From assembly GCA_016938515.1 (NCBI GenBank), contig JAFGUM010000307.1:1-10208 (forward strand): a stretch of 10,208 nucleotides of DNA, given 5' to 3'. Of this stretch, positions 3,515 through 9,878 are shown in pieces (within the stretch, counting starts at the first letter, position 1; every line of letters starts with the position of its first letter). The notes below the pieces were generated by a model that did no database searches, had not been told where the DNA came from, and saw nothing but the letters and a program-made list of their open reading frames with translations. The position numbers and the translations under genes were made by a program. The DNA comes from Spirochaetales bacterium (GTDB lineage: Bacteria > Spirochaetota > Spirochaetia > Treponematales > UBA12059).

Positions 3515-3543
3515 CTGAAGCGCAATAGTATATTTGGTATATA
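3515..3543 (+). promoter_or_regulatory. Candidate promoter of the binding-protein/kinase pair
   Basis: CTGAAG (3515-3520) and TATATA (3538-3543), 17 bases apart, with a TGG just before the -10 (extended -10 type). A second AT-rich hexamer TATATT lies at 3529-3534 with no good -35 at the right distance. Either would start the RNA within or just before the hairpin at 3543-3585. The match to the sigma-70 consensus is partial. Confidence 0.3.
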
Positions 3544-3585
3544 GGAGCCCTTCCAGAAGCCAGACGGCTCTGGGAATTGGCTCCT
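3543..3585 (+). promoter_or_regulatory. Long stem-loop in the leader of the binding-protein gene
   Basis: A 43-base imperfect inverted repeat. AGGAGCC (3543-3549) pairs with GGCTCCT (3579-3585), TTCCAG (3551-3556) with CTGGGAA (3570-3576, one bulged G), and AGCC (3558-3561) with GGCT (3566-3569), closing a 4-base loop AGAC. That makes about 17 base pairs. It ends just before the Shine-Dalgarno AGGGAG of the gene starting at 3603. No T-run follows, so it is not an intrinsic terminator on this strand. A 5' mRNA stabiliser or an operator-like inverted repeat are both possible. Confidence 0.6.
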
Positions 3586-3602
3586 GTCAGGGAGACAGTG
3601 AC

Positions 3603-4727
3603 ATGAAACGAAGTACAGCTACTGTTGCAGCGGCAAGGCTACCATGGTTCCTGGCGGTTGCGGTGATGGCCATGGCAGGAGCTTCCTGCGCCCCCAGAGC
3701 GCCGTTGGTACTGGGCTTTGCCACCAGCCTGTCCGGGCCCAACTACATGCTGGGCGTGGAGGGTCGTAACGCCGCGGAACTGTTCGTTAAGGAGGCGAAT
3801 GCATCAGGTGGCATCGCCGGGCGACAGCTCATGCTTCTGGTGAGGGATTTTGGCAGCGACGACAGAAACGTCGTGCCGGTAACCAGGGAGCTCGTCGACG
3901 CCGGCGCTGTTGTCATTCTGGGATACTTTACGAGCACATCGGCTGTTACGGCCTTGTCGTTGCGGGCAGATGAACGCGTGCCTCTCGTCAGCCCCTCAGC
4001 TACTTCGAGCGAGCTTTCTGGCCTGGATGATGGGTTCTACCGAACCATAATGAGTTCAGAGTATGACGTGCCCTACCTCGTCGCGCATATGAAGGAGAGG
4101 AAGCGGGAGCGGGTGCTCTTTCTGGCTACTGCAACCAACAGGTCGTACGTCGAAACCTACGCCGCTCCGCTTAGAACGCTCGTGAACGTAGTTTTAGACG
4201 AGCGTTTCGACTCAATAGACGACATAGACTTCGCGGCCATAGAGGATGTGCGCGAAAGGATTGGCTACGACGCCATACTCGTGGTGGCAAGTTCCATTGA
4301 TACGGGAACCCTCGCGCAGGAGTTGACTATACGCGGGCTGGACGCACCGCTGTACGTAAGCGGCTGGGCTGGTAACGACGAGCTGCTGGTCTACGGCGGC
4401 AGCAGCGTCGATGGGGCCGTGTTTGTGCATCAGACCGATATCGACCATCCGGGTGTAGTCGCGCTCGCAGGCCGATACCAGTCGGTGTTCAAGCAGAAAC
4501 CAGGCTTCAGCGCCATACAGACCTGGGATGCGCTGAGTTACATCGCAAGCGCCATTACGCTTGCGGAAGGCGACGAATCCAGATTCGCCAAGGCTATCGG
4601 CGGTATCAGGTCGTTTGACGGTTTGGCGGGACGTATCGAAATCGACGAATACGGAGACGCCACGCGCACCGTCTACTACAAGCGCGTCTCGGGTAGTAGC
4701 ATCGTGGTGGATGGAGTGGCGGAGTGA
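3603..4727 (+). CDS. ABC-type branched-chain amino acid-like substrate-binding lipoprotein
   Basis: A type I periplasmic binding protein of the LivJ / Peripla_BP_6 kind, 374 residues, expected to bind a small ligand (amino acid, amide or similar) outside the inner membrane. The N-terminus is a lipoprotein signal: charged MKRS, a hydrophobic stretch (13-26), and GASC with Cys29 as the probable lipidation site. The lipobox is relaxed, with Gly at -3. The mature part begins LVLGFATSLSGPN (35-47), the usual first strand and ligand loop, then GVEGRNAAELFVKEANASGGIAG. PLVSPSATSSELS (127-139) matches the family's ligand-contact segment. I chose the ATG at 3603 because AGGGAG lies 8 bases upstream and the signal peptide starts there; an in-frame upstream start would add 23 unlikely residues. 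The stop TGA overlaps the GTG start of the sensor kinase. No permease or ATPase gene is adjacent, so a sensory role with the kinase is inferred. The ligand cannot be told from sequence. Confidence 0.88.
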   Translation: MKRSTATVAAARLPWFLAVAVMAMAGASCAPRAPLVLGFATSLSGPNYMLGVEGRNAAELFVKEANASGGIAGRQLMLLVRDFGSDDRNVVPVTRELVDAGAVVILGYFTSTSAVTALSLRADERVPLVSPSATSSELSGLDDGFYRTIMSSEYDVPYLVAHMKERKRERVLFLATATNRSYVETYAAPLRTLVNVVLDERFDSIDDIDFAAIEDVRERIGYDAILVVASSIDTGTLAQELTIRGLDAPLYVSGWAGNDELLVYGGSSVDGAVFVHQTDIDHPGVVALAGRYQSVFKQKPGFSAIQTWDALSYIASAITLAEGDESRFAKAIGGIRSFDGLAGRIEIDEYGDATRTVYYKRVSGSSIVVDGVAE

Positions 4728-6835
4728 TTCACAGGCAGGGAAAAGGATCCATGCAAACAGTCCGCTCGAGGTTGCGCGTTTCCATGGCGCTCGCGATCGG
4801 CTTGGCGATAATCTTGTCTGGTACTGCTGTTGGCACACTGCTCGTCGTGTCCAGGGTTGGCGAGTCGATGCGTCGCGAAGCCATAGAAAAGAACAGGTTG
4901 ATCGCGCGCACCATGGCCAACGACATCAGCACCTTTCTGGACGCGTACTCGGCGTCGCTCAGGCTACTCGGAAACCCTGCGTTCAGGAACCAGCACGGAG
5001 TGGACGGCGTTGCGCGCGACTTTCCCGCATTTGATTCAGTGTTTACCGTCGATACCGCGGGGTTTGTCGAGTACGCGTCAGAGCGCTCCAAAGAGCGATT
5101 ATTCGACGTGTCGATGCGGGACTTTTTCCGCGAGACTACCGGTGTGGAGGGCGTGTATCTGTCTTCTACGTTTATAGGCGAGGGAAGTTACTCGCCTACC
5201 GCTGTCCTGGCTGCCTCATCGGCTCATGGCCTGGCCGTTGGGTATCTCAACCTGGCGCAGCTGAGCGTTTTCGTGATGTCGTTGCCCGTGTACGGAGGTG
5301 AAACGGTTGCGGTAGTTGACAGGCTGGGGTACTACGTCGCCCACAGCGACCATCAGCGGGTCAAGCAGCGAGAATCGGTTGCTACAGAGGACTGGTTCAT
5401 GCTGGCTTCCGATCCCGTATCGCAGGAGAGCTCTTCGTGGCTCATGGTAGACAGGCCATCTGGAGAAACGGAACTCGTGTGCTGGGCTCCGGTAAACAGC
5501 GACTCCGGCTGGACGGTGATGGTGGTTTCCCCCTCCAGTCGTGTGTTCGCGGTTGCCGATTATTTTGCGTCAGCACTGCTGATGACGTTCGCTCTCACCG
5601 GCGTGTTCGTGTTTTCCGTCGTTGCCTACATCCTGTGGGCTTTTGACAGGGATATCCGTTCTCTCAGGGCCCACACCACGGCCATAGCGGCTGGCAACTA
5701 CGACGCGAACCTCGGGTACAACGGCTTTGCCGATCTCAGACCCCTTGCCGACGATTTTGGCAAGGCGGTACAGGCGATTCAGGAGAGGGAAGAGCAACTC
5801 AAGGATAACAGGCACCGGCTTGAAAGCCTCCTTGATTTTATGCCCGTGCCAGTAATAAGCATCGCCCCTGACAATTCCATAGCGGTGTACAACAAAGCCA
5901 TGACCGAACTCGTCGGCTGGACTATTGATGAGGTGCGTGATGTCGAGGGGTGGTGGCGGCGCGTGTACCCCGACCAGGAGTATAGGAACACGGTTCAGGA
6001 GCACTGGCACGGCTACCTGAGCCATCTGAGGGCAGATGGTGAGCGGCTCCCGTCGTTTGAGGGCAGGCTGGCTTGCAAAGATGGTTCTACCAAAGCCGTT
6101 ATCGGCGATGCATCGATTATTGGCAACGATACCGTGGCTACCTTTACCAATGTAAGTGCTGCCCGGGAATCGGAAGCCAGGATGGCGGCCAACCTTGCAG
6201 AAAAAGAAGTGCTCCTAAAGGAGATACACCACCGAGTCAAAAACAACCTGCAGCTTATCGTAAGCTTGCTGACGCTCGACGCCAACGCCCCCGGGGGCAA
6301 CGCGGCAATATTTGCCGATTCAATAGACCGGATTCGCGTTATGGCGACTATTCACGAGCTCCTGTACGAGTCCAGAAACTTCGCGCGCATAGACCTGGCG
6401 GAATACATAGGAACAATCGTTGAATGGATACTATCGTCGTACGCGTATGGTGCCCGAAACCCCAGGCTCAAGCTGGAGCTGGAGCCTATACACCTTGACA
6501 TAGACGCGGCCGTGCCGTGCGGCCTCATAATCAACGAGTTGTTTACGAACGCCATCAAATACGCTTTTGACGAGAATACCCGCGAACCGGAAATTTTCAC
6601 CGGGGCGACGCTGAGTCCTGATGGCTTTGTAACGCTGTGCATCGCCGACAACGGCAAGGGCTTGCCTGAAAGCATCGACCCAGAGCGTGTGGACTCACTG
6701 GGTTTGCAGCTCATCGTCTCGCTTACCGCGCAGCTGCACGGTGAGTGGAGAATATCCAGGGAAGGGGGAACCACCTGGACTATACGGTTTCCCCACAAGG
6801 ACACGGCCGCAGCTCTCGAGCATGAGCCGACTTGA
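4724..6835 (+). CDS. Membrane sensor histidine kinase: Cache - HAMP-like - PAS - HisKA_2 - HATPase_c
   Basis: Predicted two-component sensor kinase, 703 residues from the GTG at 4724. TM1 is at about 20-43. A double-Cache-like periplasmic domain follows (about 44-276, with SVFTVDTAGFVEYAS and VAVVDRLGYYVAHSD repeating the Cache strand pattern), then TM2 (about 281-306) and a HAMP-like/coiled linker (307-365). A PAS domain spans about 366-478. The dimerisation box EIHHRVKNNLQLIVSLL (500-516), with His503 the likely phosphoacceptor, is of the HisKA_2 type. The ATPase domain has an N-box with Asn609 in NELFTNAIKYAF, G1 box ADNGKGLP (641-648) and G2 region around SLGLQLI (658-664). The GTG overlaps the previous stop as GTGA and has GGAG 7 bases upstream, favouring translational coupling. 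An ATG at 4751 is an alternative that would remove nine residues; its AAGGA lies only 3 bases away. No response regulator is adjacent. Confidence 0.92.
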   Translation: MIHRQGKGSMQTVRSRLRVSMALAIGLAIILSGTAVGTLLVVSRVGESMRREAIEKNRLIARTMANDISTFLDAYSASLRLLGNPAFRNQHGVDGVARDFPAFDSVFTVDTAGFVEYASERSKERLFDVSMRDFFRETTGVEGVYLSSTFIGEGSYSPTAVLAASSAHGLAVGYLNLAQLSVFVMSLPVYGGETVAVVDRLGYYVAHSDHQRVKQRESVATEDWFMLASDPVSQESSSWLMVDRPSGETELVCWAPVNSDSGWTVMVVSPSSRVFAVADYFASALLMTFALTGVFVFSVVAYILWAFDRDIRSLRAHTTAIAAGNYDANLGYNGFADLRPLADDFGKAVQAIQEREEQLKDNRHRLESLLDFMPVPVISIAPDNSIAVYNKAMTELVGWTIDEVRDVEGWWRRVYPDQEYRNTVQEHWHGYLSHLRADGERLPSFEGRLACKDGSTKAVIGDASIIGNDTVATFTNVSAARESEARMAANLAEKEVLLKEIHHRVKNNLQLIVSLLTLDANAPGGNAAIFADSIDRIRVMATIHELLYESRNFARIDLAEYIGTIVEWILSSYAYGARNPRLKLELEPIHLDIDAAVPCGLIINELFTNAIKYAFDENTREPEIFTGATLSPDGFVTLCIADNGKGLPESIDPERVDSLGLQLIVSLTAQLHGEWRISREGGTTWTIRFPHKDTAAALEHEPT

Positions 6836-6860
6836 CCACGCGCTGCAAAGTAGCGATAGT
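6832..6860 (+). promoter_or_regulatory. Predicted sigma-70-type promoter of the T-box/thrS transcript
   Basis: TTGACC (6832-6837) and GATAGT (6855-6860) are separated by exactly 17 bases. The -35 box matches consensus at five of six positions and the -10 at four. Initiation at about 6867-6868 would begin the RNA immediately before the base of T-box Stem I (GGCT at 6871). The -35 contains the TGA stop of the kinase gene, so the two genes abut with no space for a separate terminator. Confidence 0.6.
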
Positions 6861-6867
6861 AGTGGGC

Positions 6868-7270
6868 ACAGGCTTTGATGGAGACGAGTAGGCGGGTCGT
6901 CGCGCCCGGAGAGAGGGTGCCCCTGGCTGGAAGGCGCCCGACGCGATCCCGTTGAAAACCACTCCGGAGCCGCTCCCGTGAACACCCCTCGGGGCTGGTA
7001 ATTGGAGCCGGGTGCGCCCGTTATAGCATTACGAGCGCGAGCTTGGTAGTGTAATTGAACCACGGAGACACGGAGGACAGAAGACAGCAAGACGAGGCTG
7101 AGAAAAGCCTGGGAAATGCACGCTTCTTGACTCGGTTGTTTCTCTGTTTAGATGTGTTCAGTGCAATGCTGGCCCGAAGTAAGGTGGTACCGCGGATTCC
7201 GCGAGCCGGAGCACGACGTCGTCGTGGTTCGACGGTCCCAATACGGGACCTGACGGGATTCGTCCTTACG
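6868..7270 (+). promoter_or_regulatory. T-box riboswitch (tRNA-Thr sensing) in the thrS leader
   Basis: An RNA leader that reads the charging state of tRNA-Thr. The base of Stem I pairs GGCT (6871-6874) with AGCC (6968-6971) and GGAG (6880-6883) with CTCC (6962-6965). The AGTA motif is at 6887-6890. The lower arm pairs CGGG (6893-6896) with CCCG (6948-6951). GGAGAGAG (6908-6915) and a distal stem GGGTGCC/GGCGCCC (6915-6921/6933-6939) close over a loop containing GGCTGGAA. The specifier loop holds GAAAACCA (6954-6961), with ACC (Thr) at 6958-6960. Stem II candidate: GCTCC (6972-6976) with GGAGC (7004-7008), then a small hairpin CGGG-TGCG-CCCG (7009-7020). Antiterminator: AAGG (7181-7184) with CCTT (7264-7267), bulge TGGTACC (7185-7191), and GCG (7192-7194) with CGT (7261-7263). 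TGGT would pair with a tRNA end ACCA, fitting A73 of tRNA-Thr. A 66-base insert with three hairpins (7195-7260) lies inside the antiterminator. Confidence 0.92.
7055..7079 (+). repeat. Partial copy of a dispersed 'AACCACGGAGACACGGAG' repeat
   Basis: TTGAACCACGGAGACACGG followed by AGGACA (7055-7079) matches, from memory, the left arm of an inverted-repeat element scattered through many Gram-negative genomes. Its chance translations give short ORFs of the NHGDTED / SVSPWFN kind, and both appear here on opposite strands. The usual right arm (CTCCGTG...GTGGTT) is not evident downstream. Only a weak GGTTGTTTCTCTG (7134-7146) remains, so the copy seems partial or decayed. It lies in the T-box linker after the Stem II region. 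Confidence 0.6.
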
Positions 7271-7296
7271 CTGTAGAACGCCGGTAACGAACGCGG

Positions 7297-7342
7297 CGGG
7301 GCGTACGGACGCGCCCCGATCGTGCTGTTGCCGATCGAGGAG
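7297..7342 (+). promoter_or_regulatory. Hairpins and Shine-Dalgarno of thrS (translational expression platform)
   Basis: CGGGGCG (7297-7303) pairs with CGCCCCG (7312-7318). CGATCG (7317-7322) pairs with CGATCG (7332-7337) across a 9-base loop, ending on the first base of the Shine-Dalgarno GAGGAG (7337-7342), which lies 6 bases before the thrS ATG. No T-run follows either hairpin. GAGGA (7337-7341) can also pair with TCCTT (7263-7267), the 3' strand of the T-box antiterminator. The two pairings of TCCTT exclude each other, as in translational T-boxes. The pairing is seen; the mechanism is inferred. Confidence 0.5.
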
Positions 7343-7348
7343 TACCGT

Positions 7349-9085
7349 ATGAGCTTTCCCGTCCAGACCATCCGCCACTCGTATTCCCACGTCATGGCCG
7401 AAGCCGTAATCAAGCTGCACCCGGGCACCAAGGTGGCCATAGGGCCGGCCATAGACGACGGATTCTACTACGACTTTCTGTTTCCCGAAGCGCTGCAACC
7501 GGACGACCTCCCGGCCATCGAAAAGGAAATGCGTCGAATCATCTCAGCCAACGTGCCGTTCAATCGCGTCGAGGTAAGCAAAGCCGAGGCAAAGGCGATG
7601 TTCGCTGACGAGCCGTTCAAACTGGAGCTTATAGACGGGCTGGAAGATGGCACCATCTCCATCTACGAGCAGGGAGTGTTCAGGGACCTCTGTCGTGGCC
7701 CGCACGTGGACACTACTCGCGACCTGAAACCCGATGCCTTCAAGCTACGGGCAATAGCGGGCGCGTACTGGCGGGGCGACGAGAAACGGCCCATGCTCAC
7801 CCGTATTTACGCCTACGCCTTTGGTAGCAAAGCCGACCTTGAAGCCCACCTGAAGCTGCTCGCCGAGGCTGAGAAACGCGACAACCGCAAGCTGGGCAAG
7901 GAGCTGGGGCTGTTCAGCACCCATGAAGAAGCGGGGCCGGGCCTGATTTACTGGCACCCCAAGGGCGGCCGCTTCCGCGTCGAGCTGGAGAACTGGTGGC
8001 GCGACGAGCACTACGGCAACGGGTACGAGATCCTCTTTACCCCGCACATCGGCAAAAGCTGGCTCTGGGAAACTTCGGGACACCTCGGCTTCTACAAAGA
8101 GGGCATGTACTCGCCCATGGAGATAGACGAGGACGACTACTACATCAAGCCGATGAACTGCCCGTTCCACATCATGATATACAACAACGACGTGCACTCG
8201 TACCGCGAGCTGCCCCTGCGCTGGGCGGAACTGGGCACTGTATACCGCTACGAGCGCTCTGGCACCCTGCACGGCCTCATGCGCGTGCGCGGTTTTACCC
8301 AGGATGACGCGCACATCATCTGCACACCGGAACAGATCGAAGACGAGATCGCCGAGGTGCTGCGTTTTTCGCTTCATATGCACAAGACCCTCGGCTTCAA
8401 GGAAATCAAGGCGTACCTCGCGACGCGGCCCGCTGGCAACGGCGCTGTAGGCGATCCTGCGATGTGGGATACAGCTCTGGAGTCTCTGCGCAAGGCCATA
8501 GGCAAGGAAGGCCTGGCCTACGAAATGGACGAGGGCGGCGGCGCCTTCTACGGCCCCAAGATAGACCTCAAGGTCAAGGACGCTCTCGGCCGCGAATGGC
8601 AGCTGACCACCATACAGTTCGACTTCAACCTGCCGGAGCGCTTTGACATGACCTACGTGGACTCAGACGGCCAGAAGAAGCGGCCGTACATGGTACACAG
8701 GGCCCTGCTCGGCTCGATCGAGCGCTTCTTTGGCGTGTACCTCGAGCACACCGCGGGAGCCTTCCCGATATGGCTTGCGCCGGAACAAGCGGTGGTCATT
8801 CCGGTGGGGCCGGACTTTGCCGATTACGCCGCTACAGTAGCTGCGGATCTTAAGAAAGCGGGCGTGCGCGTGAAGGCTATGCTCTCCGATGAGCGGATGA
8901 ACGCGAAGATCCGTGACGCCCAGAATCAGAAAGTGCCCTACATGCTCGTCGTCGGCGCCAAGGAGCGCGATGAGGGCACCGTAGCGGTGCGCGTGCGTGA
9001 CGGCCGGCAGCTGCCGGCGATGCCGGTGGCCGCTTTTGTCGAGATGGTACAGGCACTGGTTCGGGAACGGTCGCTCGAACTGTAA
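7349..9085 (+). CDS. thrS: Threonyl-tRNA synthetase, lacking the TGS domain
   Basis: Class II synthetase that charges tRNA-Thr in the cytoplasm. The protein has 578 residues from the ATG at 7349, chosen for GAGGAG 6 bases upstream. It is about 60 residues shorter than E. coli ThrRS (642) because it starts directly at the N2 editing domain: HSYSH (His10, His14) corresponds to E. coli His73/His77, and Cys115 and His119 lie in LCRGPH. The TGS (N1) domain is absent, and the leader RNA upstream leaves no room for it. The catalytic core keeps the zinc ligands Cys271 (MNCPFH), His322 (DDAHIIC) and His450 (YMVHRALLGS), and the motif 2 arginine at 300 (VYRYERSG). The anticodon-binding domain is at about 473-570 (PVGPDF, VRVKAMLSDERMNAKIRDAQNQKVPYMLVVG read in two parts). 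Editing residues appear intact, so proofreading of Ser-tRNA-Thr is expected. Expression is probably set by the T-box upstream. A GTG at 7322 is a less likely start. Confidence 0.97.
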   Translation: MSFPVQTIRHSYSHVMAEAVIKLHPGTKVAIGPAIDDGFYYDFLFPEALQPDDLPAIEKEMRRIISANVPFNRVEVSKAEAKAMFADEPFKLELIDGLEDGTISIYEQGVFRDLCRGPHVDTTRDLKPDAFKLRAIAGAYWRGDEKRPMLTRIYAYAFGSKADLEAHLKLLAEAEKRDNRKLGKELGLFSTHEEAGPGLIYWHPKGGRFRVELENWWRDEHYGNGYEILFTPHIGKSWLWETSGHLGFYKEGMYSPMEIDEDDYYIKPMNCPFHIMIYNNDVHSYRELPLRWAELGTVYRYERSGTLHGLMRVRGFTQDDAHIICTPEQIEDEIAEVLRFSLHMHKTLGFKEIKAYLATRPAGNGAVGDPAMWDTALESLRKAIGKEGLAYEMDEGGGAFYGPKIDLKVKDALGREWQLTTIQFDFNLPERFDMTYVDSDGQKKRPYMVHRALLGSIERFFGVYLEHTAGAFPIWLAPEQAVVIPVGPDFADYAATVAADLKKAGVRVKAMLSDERMNAKIRDAQNQKVPYMLVVGAKERDEGTVAVRVRDGRQLPAMPVAAFVEMVQALVRERSLEL

Positions 9086-9152: not shown

Positions 9153-9878
9153 ATGGATCCAGAATATTCGGGACTGGGACGAAAGCTGCTCATCGTCGTG
9201 GGGCTGTCGTTCCTGTCCTGCACGCTGTTTGTCCTGGTTCGGTTCAGCCTCACTCATAAATTCGCGCAGAGCTATCTGGTCTGGAACCTGTTGCTGGCGG
9301 CCGTGCCCGTGATCGTGTCATGGCTTGCCGGCGGGCAGGCGCGGCGCCTGCGCGGGATGGGCGTGAGCCCTCTGAGGCAAAAACTTGCCGGTGGCTGTTT
9401 TTTTATATTATGGCTGGTGTTTTATCCCAATGCTCCGTACATCTTTACCGACTTCATCCACGTTGTACGGCGTGCCGGGCTGGGACAGGTCGCGGCTAAC
9501 TGGCTGTCAGAGTACGACCTGCTATGGTTCGACATCGTAATGAACTCGGCTTTTGCCTTCGTTGGACATTTTCTGGGGCTGGTATCGATGAACATCATGC
9601 ACGGCACCATGCTGAGCCTGTTCGGGCGCGTAGCGGGTTGGCTGTTGCTGGTGCCGGCCATCGTGCTGTCTGGTTTCGGCATTCACCTCGGTAGGTTTTC
9701 GCGCTTCAACAGCTGGGATATGGCTTTGTATCCCGTCGATTCGTTCCGTGTGATGTTCCGTTCGATGTTCGACCCGGCGGCCCTGCTGTTCTCGATGGCT
9801 TTTTCCCTGTTCATAGCCATGACCTACGTGATGTTCTACGTGGTCAACGGGGTTGAGCGCCGCACGCCTGGTCGGTGA
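9153..9878 (+). CDS. DUF1361 family integral membrane protein
   Basis: Predicted inner-membrane protein of unknown function, 241 residues. Two segments typical of DUF1361 are present: FYPNAPYIFTDFIH (90-103), in the family's 'W-hydrophobic-PNAPYI-TD' pattern, and GIHLGRFSRFNSWD (176-189). About six hydrophobic segments are visible (roughly 11-30, 41-59, 79-92, 122-147, 160-175 and 208-231), with a basic loop QARRLRG between the second and third. I chose the ATG at 9153 because GGAGGG lies about 6 bases upstream; an in-frame start at 9111 would add 14 residues of Pro/Arg-rich sequence with no ribosome site. The gene follows thrS by 67 bases in the same direction with no terminator between, so it may be on the thrS transcript. 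It is convergent with the small membrane protein gene to the right, 24 bases away. The biochemical role is not known for the family. Confidence 0.85.
   Translation: MDPEYSGLGRKLLIVVGLSFLSCTLFVLVRFSLTHKFAQSYLVWNLLLAAVPVIVSWLAGGQARRLRGMGVSPLRQKLAGGCFFILWLVFYPNAPYIFTDFIHVVRRAGLGQVAANWLSEYDLLWFDIVMNSAFAFVGHFLGLVSMNIMHGTMLSLFGRVAGWLLLVPAIVLSGFGIHLGRFSRFNSWDMALYPVDSFRVMFRSMFDPAALLFSMAFSLFIAMTYVMFYVVNGVERRTPGR

Follow-up and report, generated by a model that had tools for sequence, protein, structure and literature searches.

A T-box riboswitch upstream of thrS in an uncultured spirochaete carries a dispersed repeat in Stem III and a U opposite U73 of tRNA-Thr

Results

The window, by which we mean the whole stretch of 10,208 nucleotides that was analysed, carries the gene for threonyl-tRNA synthetase (ThrRS) behind a structured leader (Table 1). 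The neighbours clpS, clpA and aat named in the original prediction were identified by Pfam, and its description of a ThrRS without a TGS domain also held, no TGS being found among the Pfam matches of the protein at a cut-off of E 0.001. A Peripla_BP_6 periplasmic binding protein is located beside a dCache-like/HisKA_2 histidine kinase at 3534-6835, ending about 30 bases 5' of the T-box leader, and a DUF1361 protein is located at 9156-9875, downstream of thrS. A match to mir-21 at 4420-4499 (E 0.057, under its threshold) was taken as chance. The thrS comparison set consisted of the best 80 of at least 592 loci, and within it the best eight matches in named genomes were all titled Spirochaetota, Spirochaetaceae, Spirochaetales or Spirochaetes, with 77-63% identity. 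In a tree of 177 ThrRS proteins, from which three short proteins were left out (a second tree kept 120 rows), the window fell into a starred set of 85 rows, of which the nine with a phylum label were all Spirochaetota and the other 76 were unlabelled. The window's ThrRS was placed among those of its own genus, up to 90% identical. By these comparisons the host, suspected from the beginning to be a spirochaete, is an uncultured spirochaete.

Table 1. Positions of the features in the window.
Feature	Positions	Strand	Basis or remark
Putative sigma-70-type promoter, TTGACC-17-GATAGT, just 5' of the leader	6832..6860	+	Consensus match alone
Stem I with AGTA (6887-6890) and distal loop	6871..6971	+	RF00230 match; covariation, 19 family members
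Specifier codon ACC in GAA-A-ACC-A (6954-6961)	6958..6960	+	Invariant in 19/19 family members; cognate tRNA in genome
Stem II and Stem IIA/B with CCGUUA (F-box); borders approximate	6973..7023	+	RF00230 alignment
GAGCG, RRRxG purine string 5' of Stem III (3'-side AA 7177-7178)	7033..7037	+	Sequence reading against the motif in the part of PMC7583486 covered
Stem III, lengthened by insert	7038..7175	+	One long hairpin predicted
Insert from dispersed inverted-repeat element, about 110 nt; borders approximate	7052..7165	+	Left end intact, right end degenerate
Antiterminator: A1 7181-7184/7264-7267; bulge UGGUACC 7185-7191; extended A2 7192-7200/7255-7263	7181..7267	+	
Fourth base of UGGN, U, opposite tRNA-Thr U73	7188..7188	+	Bulge and tRNA reading
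Predicted competing OFF helix (7242-7273 with 7299-7329)	7242..7329	+	Duplex -31.0 kcal/mol
Shine-Dalgarno GAGGAG (7337-7342), then GUACC (7342-7346)	7337..7346	+	Read from sequence
thrS, threonyl-tRNA synthetase	7349..9085	+	Pfam tRNA_SAD, tRNA-synt_2b, HGTP_anticodon

We found that the leader is, judged by its sequence, a T-box riboswitch (RF00230). The search with this family, suggested in the original prediction, gave a cmscan match to the full model (1-219) at 6866-7229 of the + strand with E 4.2e-13, but the score of 66.8 bits was below the gathering score of 93 and was counted against the T-box reading. The shortfall probably came in part from two long interior insertions, one of about 110 nt in Stem III and the other an enlarged antiterminator loop. 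The 3' end given by Rfam, 7229, is a false partner; the true antiterminator end is 7267. The AGTA motif that had been claimed and a long Stem I are present on the + strand, and Stem I, over which covariation was counted, covaried beyond chance. When the 19 aligned members of the window's family (f1) were compared, two-sided changes occurred at 17 of 29 pairs against 7.7 in shuffles, none of 500 being as high; 88.2% of the cells were paired, pairing collapsed on sliding, and all five covariation measures were matched by 0/500 shuffles.

The specifier had been read as GAA-AA-ACC-A. Its ACC was correct, but the context in the window, GAAAACCA, reads GAA-A-ACC-A and has one A fewer. ACC was unchanged in 19/19 members of the f1 alignment, preceded by A or G and followed by A, G or C, and in f4 leaders the preceding base was also C (L089) or U (L101). 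This codon specifies Thr, cognate to the downstream thrS, and the matching tRNA-Thr(GGU) was detected together with tRNA-Thr(CGU) in the window's own genome, which is 79% complete.

The proposed T-box sequence AAGG-TGGTACC-GCG was located at 7181-7194, with its partner CGT-CCTT at 7261-7267 on the + strand, and UGG of the bulge was read at 7185-7187. The antiterminator is formed by pairing of AAGG-UGGUACC-GCGGAUUCC (7181-7200) with GGGAUUCGU-CCUU (7255-7267), as in relatives, where the extended A2 is present too and contains changed pairs, for example in L096. Folding of 7182-7268 gave -39.0 kcal/mol (z -1.74), which is mildly better than shuffles, 12 of 200 being as stable. Sequence and covariance model together established the ACC Stem I, parts of Stem II, the purine flanks of Stem III, the bulge and the antiterminator, with covariation as further evidence in the case of Stem I. 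The full T-box for tRNA-Thr that had been predicted ahead of thrS was borne out, but it is not a plain one, as about 110 nt inside its Stem III derive from a repeat. A promoter consensus scan of the leader region found one site against a mean of 0.1 in shuffles.

On these features, the leader very probably acts as a T-box riboswitch of the long-Stem-I type, which responds to uncharged tRNA-Thr(GGU) by increasing ThrRS synthesis under threonine shortage. Uncharged tRNA-Thr would pair its anticodon with ACC and its CCA with UGG, and would hold the antiterminator. Charged tRNA would be unable to do so, and the freed 3' strand would pair with the downstream sequence, switching thrS off. The antiterminator and the competing helix are both present as predictions in the window, and constrained folds of its leader without tRNA gave -84.0 kcal/mol for the OFF state and -78.5 kcal/mol for the ON state. 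In 18/19 f1 leaders the 3' part of the antiterminator was predicted to pair strongly with sequence further downstream (-31.0 to -56.5 kcal/mol, unconstrained duplexes), L096 being the weak exception at -14.2 kcal/mol.

We further investigated how the OFF helix might act. In f4 it looks like a terminator with a U-tract, the richest T count per 8 bases between antiterminator and start being 5-8 in all ten f4 leaders against 2-5 in the window's genus (n=8), where the tract appears weak or absent. In the window itself, no 8-base stretch from the antiterminator to 14 bases ahead of the start held more than 4 T, and a terminator scan of its leader found neither a terminator-like site nor a class I terminator hairpin with a U-tract. 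Since the U-tract is weak or absent in the window's genus, blocked translation, perhaps accompanied by some remaining termination, was thought slightly likelier than plain attenuation, and we give this reading about an even chance. Folding did not support sequestration of the Shine-Dalgarno sequence as the means of such a block. In the constrained model the predicted openness of the window's Shine-Dalgarno bases was 0.32 in the ON and 0.76 in the OFF state, the wrong direction for translational control, and f1 showed no general closing, as the mean hardly shifted (ON 0.36, OFF 0.32) and results were mixed among relatives. The predicted OFF duplex extended into the Shine-Dalgarno sequence in L088, L091 and L109, and stopped short of it in the window.

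Alternatively, the OFF helix may end transcription by plain attenuation despite the weak U-tract, perhaps aided by Rho or because terminators poor in U are tolerated in a GC-rich genome. The strong pairings of the 18 f1 leaders speak for this reading, as do the T-rich corresponding regions in f4, f13 and others, the TTTT retained in the 3' arm of the helix in L108 and L110, and the 5 and 4 T per 8 bases of L088 and L094, both from the window's genus. The low T content of the window and its lack of a terminator-like site count against it, and we regard plain attenuation as a tentative second choice. The families f4, f1 and f5 form a series in which the sequence following the antiterminator can be seen both with a U-tract and lacking one.

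Complementarity between base N of UGGN and base 73 of the tRNA is a usual T-box feature with recorded exceptions and not a defining one. In the parts of the literature covered, N was described as varying with the tRNA discriminator base (PMC2916919), and as Watson-Crick paired with base 73 more often than not, Trp being an exception with G:U (TBDB, PMC7778990). N in the window is not complementary to base 73, U facing U73 in both Thr tRNAs found in the genome. All 57 spirochaete genomes read (59 before removal of Leptolinea and one Clostridia genome) had tRNA-Thr(GGU) with U73. Of 50 of these whose thrS T-box was read (51 before removal of Leptolinea, which has A), 35 had U as base N, 10 had A and 5 had G, so that 35 lack the fourth T-box:tRNA pair and 15 can form it. 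The T-box motif was also present in 14 of 79 named thrS loci (among the best 80 of at least 592, L075 left out). Four of these were spirochaetes, with UGGU in L002, L008 and L009 and UGGA in L032, and the ten others all had UGGA. A control of six Clostridia genomes yielded no T-box set and was replaced by Chloroflexi, for which tRNA-Thr(GGU) was read in four of the ten non-spirochaete T-box genomes; in a fifth, G416, tRNA-Thr(CGU) alone was found, again with U73. The fourth pair was missing in none of the four, all of which combined U73 with UGGA. Within the sampled genomes (spirochaetes and four Chloroflexi), the UGGU/U73 mismatch is a feature of several spirochaete branches, and its recurrence offers a natural test of how important the fourth T-box:tRNA pair is. 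In family f13, g53 (L152, L161, L162, L167, L168, L171, L173), UGGG replaces UGGA and would make a G:U wobble with U73.

A second role of the bulge was considered, in which GGUACC pairs in the OFF state with the GUACC beside the Shine-Dalgarno sequence and tRNA binding frees the ribosome site. We consider this unlikely, and equally so its extension that the fourth base is kept as U for the start pairing at the cost of the discriminator pair with U73 of tRNA-Thr. If true, the same seven bases would be both tRNA sensor and start-site block in one spirochaete branch. GTAC was found within 16 bases before the start in 19/19 f1 leaders. Among 79 spirochaete thrS T-boxes, it preceded the start in 30 of 48 UGGU leaders and in none of 31 with UGGA, UGGG or UGGC, and predicted bulge-to-start pairing averaged 2.1 versus 0.6 pairs, although the higher pairing of GTAC leaders is partly built in, GTAC being complementary to GGUACC. 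At the f1 loci, 18 of 120 frames with a Shine-Dalgarno sequence (frames unfiltered) had GTAC and 13 of the 18 were thrS starts; for other f1 frames with a Shine-Dalgarno sequence the figure was about 5/107 (unfiltered, some spurious). U and GTAC occur together in L009, f3-L172 and f19, whereas UGGA without GTAC is found in their neighbours L032 and L169. However, five independent tree contrasts gave a mean of 2.2 concordant, 0 opposed and 2.8 without difference, which was not significant. GTAC was absent from 18 UGGU leaders and from L008, and was combined with UGGA in the Anaerolineae L011. A run of at least 5 T lay between T-box and start in 8 of the 30 GTAC leaders, which may use a terminator, and the expected number of such pairs in the window, 1.8 without constraint, fell to 0.19 under the OFF model. 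The association of UGGU with GTAC appears to be largely explained by shared descent, and it remains a lead.

The insert in Stem III was traced to other places in the genome. The segment 7046-7076 partly matched five of them at 100-86%. Inverted ends were present on both sides, about 100-145 bases apart, at three of the five (L112, L113, L115); L114 had only direct copies nearby, and L116 was at a contig end. The sequence CCACGGAGRCACGGAG had 16 exact sites in the genome, the window site included, and with one mismatch allowed 35 sites were found versus 5 for the reversed control. The dispersed element appears to be MITE-like, a short element with CCACGGAGRCACGGAG ends, often inverted and in places tandem, and was also seen in G000 C345, C46, C408, C226 and C599. 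The region 7035-7177 folded as a single long hairpin of -46.4 kcal/mol (z -1.72), mildly better than shuffles, of which 12 of 200 were as stable. The insert makes Stem III longer at the tip, probably without harm to the sensing core. That it broke the window copy, which would now be unregulated or permanently off, we hold to be improbable. By eye, the insert was not seen in the leaders of the seven other genus members and the base of Stem III looked less perfectly paired than in genus relatives, but the conserved flanks, bulge and antiterminator are intact, insert and Stem III fold as one arm, and section 14 of a review (PMC7583486) describes insertions in Stem III and helix A2 as frequent in translational T-boxes.

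The original prediction held that a T-box would be unusual in spirochaetes and might mark horizontal transfer. At E <=0.01, T-box matches were present in at least 37 of the 58 genomes of the relatives' set, the window's own included, and in 8/8 of the genus; by family they were found in 19/23 (f1), 1/1 (f2), 0/12 (f3), 11/12 (f4) and 6/10 (f5). Across the phylum, at least 72 of 392 genomes had a match at E 0.001 and 320 had none. Both surveys (58 and 392), each of over 40 genomes, used stricter filters, so that these counts are lower bounds. With such figures for genus, family, relatives and phylum, the T-box can hardly be called unusual. A match above the Rfam threshold was found in 25 of the 392 genomes, and automatic annotation of some is therefore likely. 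Ninety-five spirochaete T-box loci were collected; 80 precede thrS, and for the remaining 15 no assignment to thrS was made. Family f10 (L147-L151, L266-L268) has strong T-boxes, up to 125.6 bits, with two per genome in three genomes, that were not assigned to thrS. Those of L097 and L090 precede genes that, from their first residues, are presumably trpB and aspS.

From 21 loci given for a check on loss, 19 thrS leaders were read, since L131 lacked upstream sequence and for L311 the measurement started within the gene. Eighteen lacked a T-box motif inside 700 bases and gave no match to the Stem I profile (f1 2, f5 5, f3 11), and L135 retained Stem I, its genome having a T-box match in the relatives' survey. 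Upstream of thrS in L005, a Spirochaetaceae MAG, an apparently decayed Stem I and a changed specifier region without a T-box were seen by eye. Spirochaete ThrRS formed two groups in the tree, with T-boxes in some members of each, and the window's group adjoins Anaerolineae ThrRS that also have thrS T-boxes. In the window's lineage the T-box accompanies thrS through the ThrRS tree, being lost in places. It is seemingly held in common by many spirochaete relatives and not a recent borrowing, and not all of the phylum has it. Recent acquisition of T-box and thrS from a Firmicute or Chloroflexus is highly improbable: although the neighbouring non-spirochaete ThrRS clade includes Anaerolineae with thrS T-boxes, the T-box is found throughout the genus (8/8) and in 37/58 of the relatives' set, and the window's ThrRS is nested in its own genus. 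A recent transfer is thus unsupported by distribution and ThrRS tree, and measured by the refuting condition that the original prediction had itself set, this claim fails.

Discussion

T-boxes have been described mainly from Gram-positive bacteria. The leaders analysed here suggest a thrS-type T-box spread over a diderm class. A published phylum table lists six genomes of Spirochaetes, none with a T-box (Wels et al. 2008, PMC2494555), and the passages of the TBDB paper covered (PMC7778990) speak of major phyla and name no spirochaete. A literature search with T-box and spirochaete terms, outside whose coverage lay some key T-box papers, gave no recognisable report of spirochaete T-boxes, and in a paper on termination in Borrelia (PMC10319736) the T-box term was confined to the reference list.

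Compared with class II (translational) T-boxes, which are mostly actinobacterial and found for example at ileS, the window is alike in that no terminator was found and in its insertions in Stem III and helix A2, a trend noted in the part of PMC7583486 covered, but differs in keeping a long Stem I, in having no demonstrated sequestrator and in its specificity for Thr. From class I transcriptional T-boxes it differs by the want of a clear U-tract. With the nearest known system the window has in common a long Stem I, Stem II, Stem IIA/B, the flanks of Stem III, a UGGN bulge, a competing helix and an ACC specifier before thrS, and it departs from that system in its U-tract, in UGGU facing U73, in the extended helix A2 of the antiterminator, in the repeat inserted into Stem III and in its spirochaete host. 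The Anaerolineae thrS T-boxes (such as L010, Leptolinea) share with it thrS, a tRNA-Thr with U73 (four genomes read) and a neighbouring ThrRS clade; theirs, however, have UGGA, which pairs with U73, and T-rich stretches after the antiterminator (by eye), whereas the window has UGGU. Set beside these systems, what is new here is the dispersed repeat in Stem III of the window copy, the predicted OFF helix of the genus with a weak or absent U-tract, and the UGGU/U73 mismatch in 35 of 50 spirochaete genomes.
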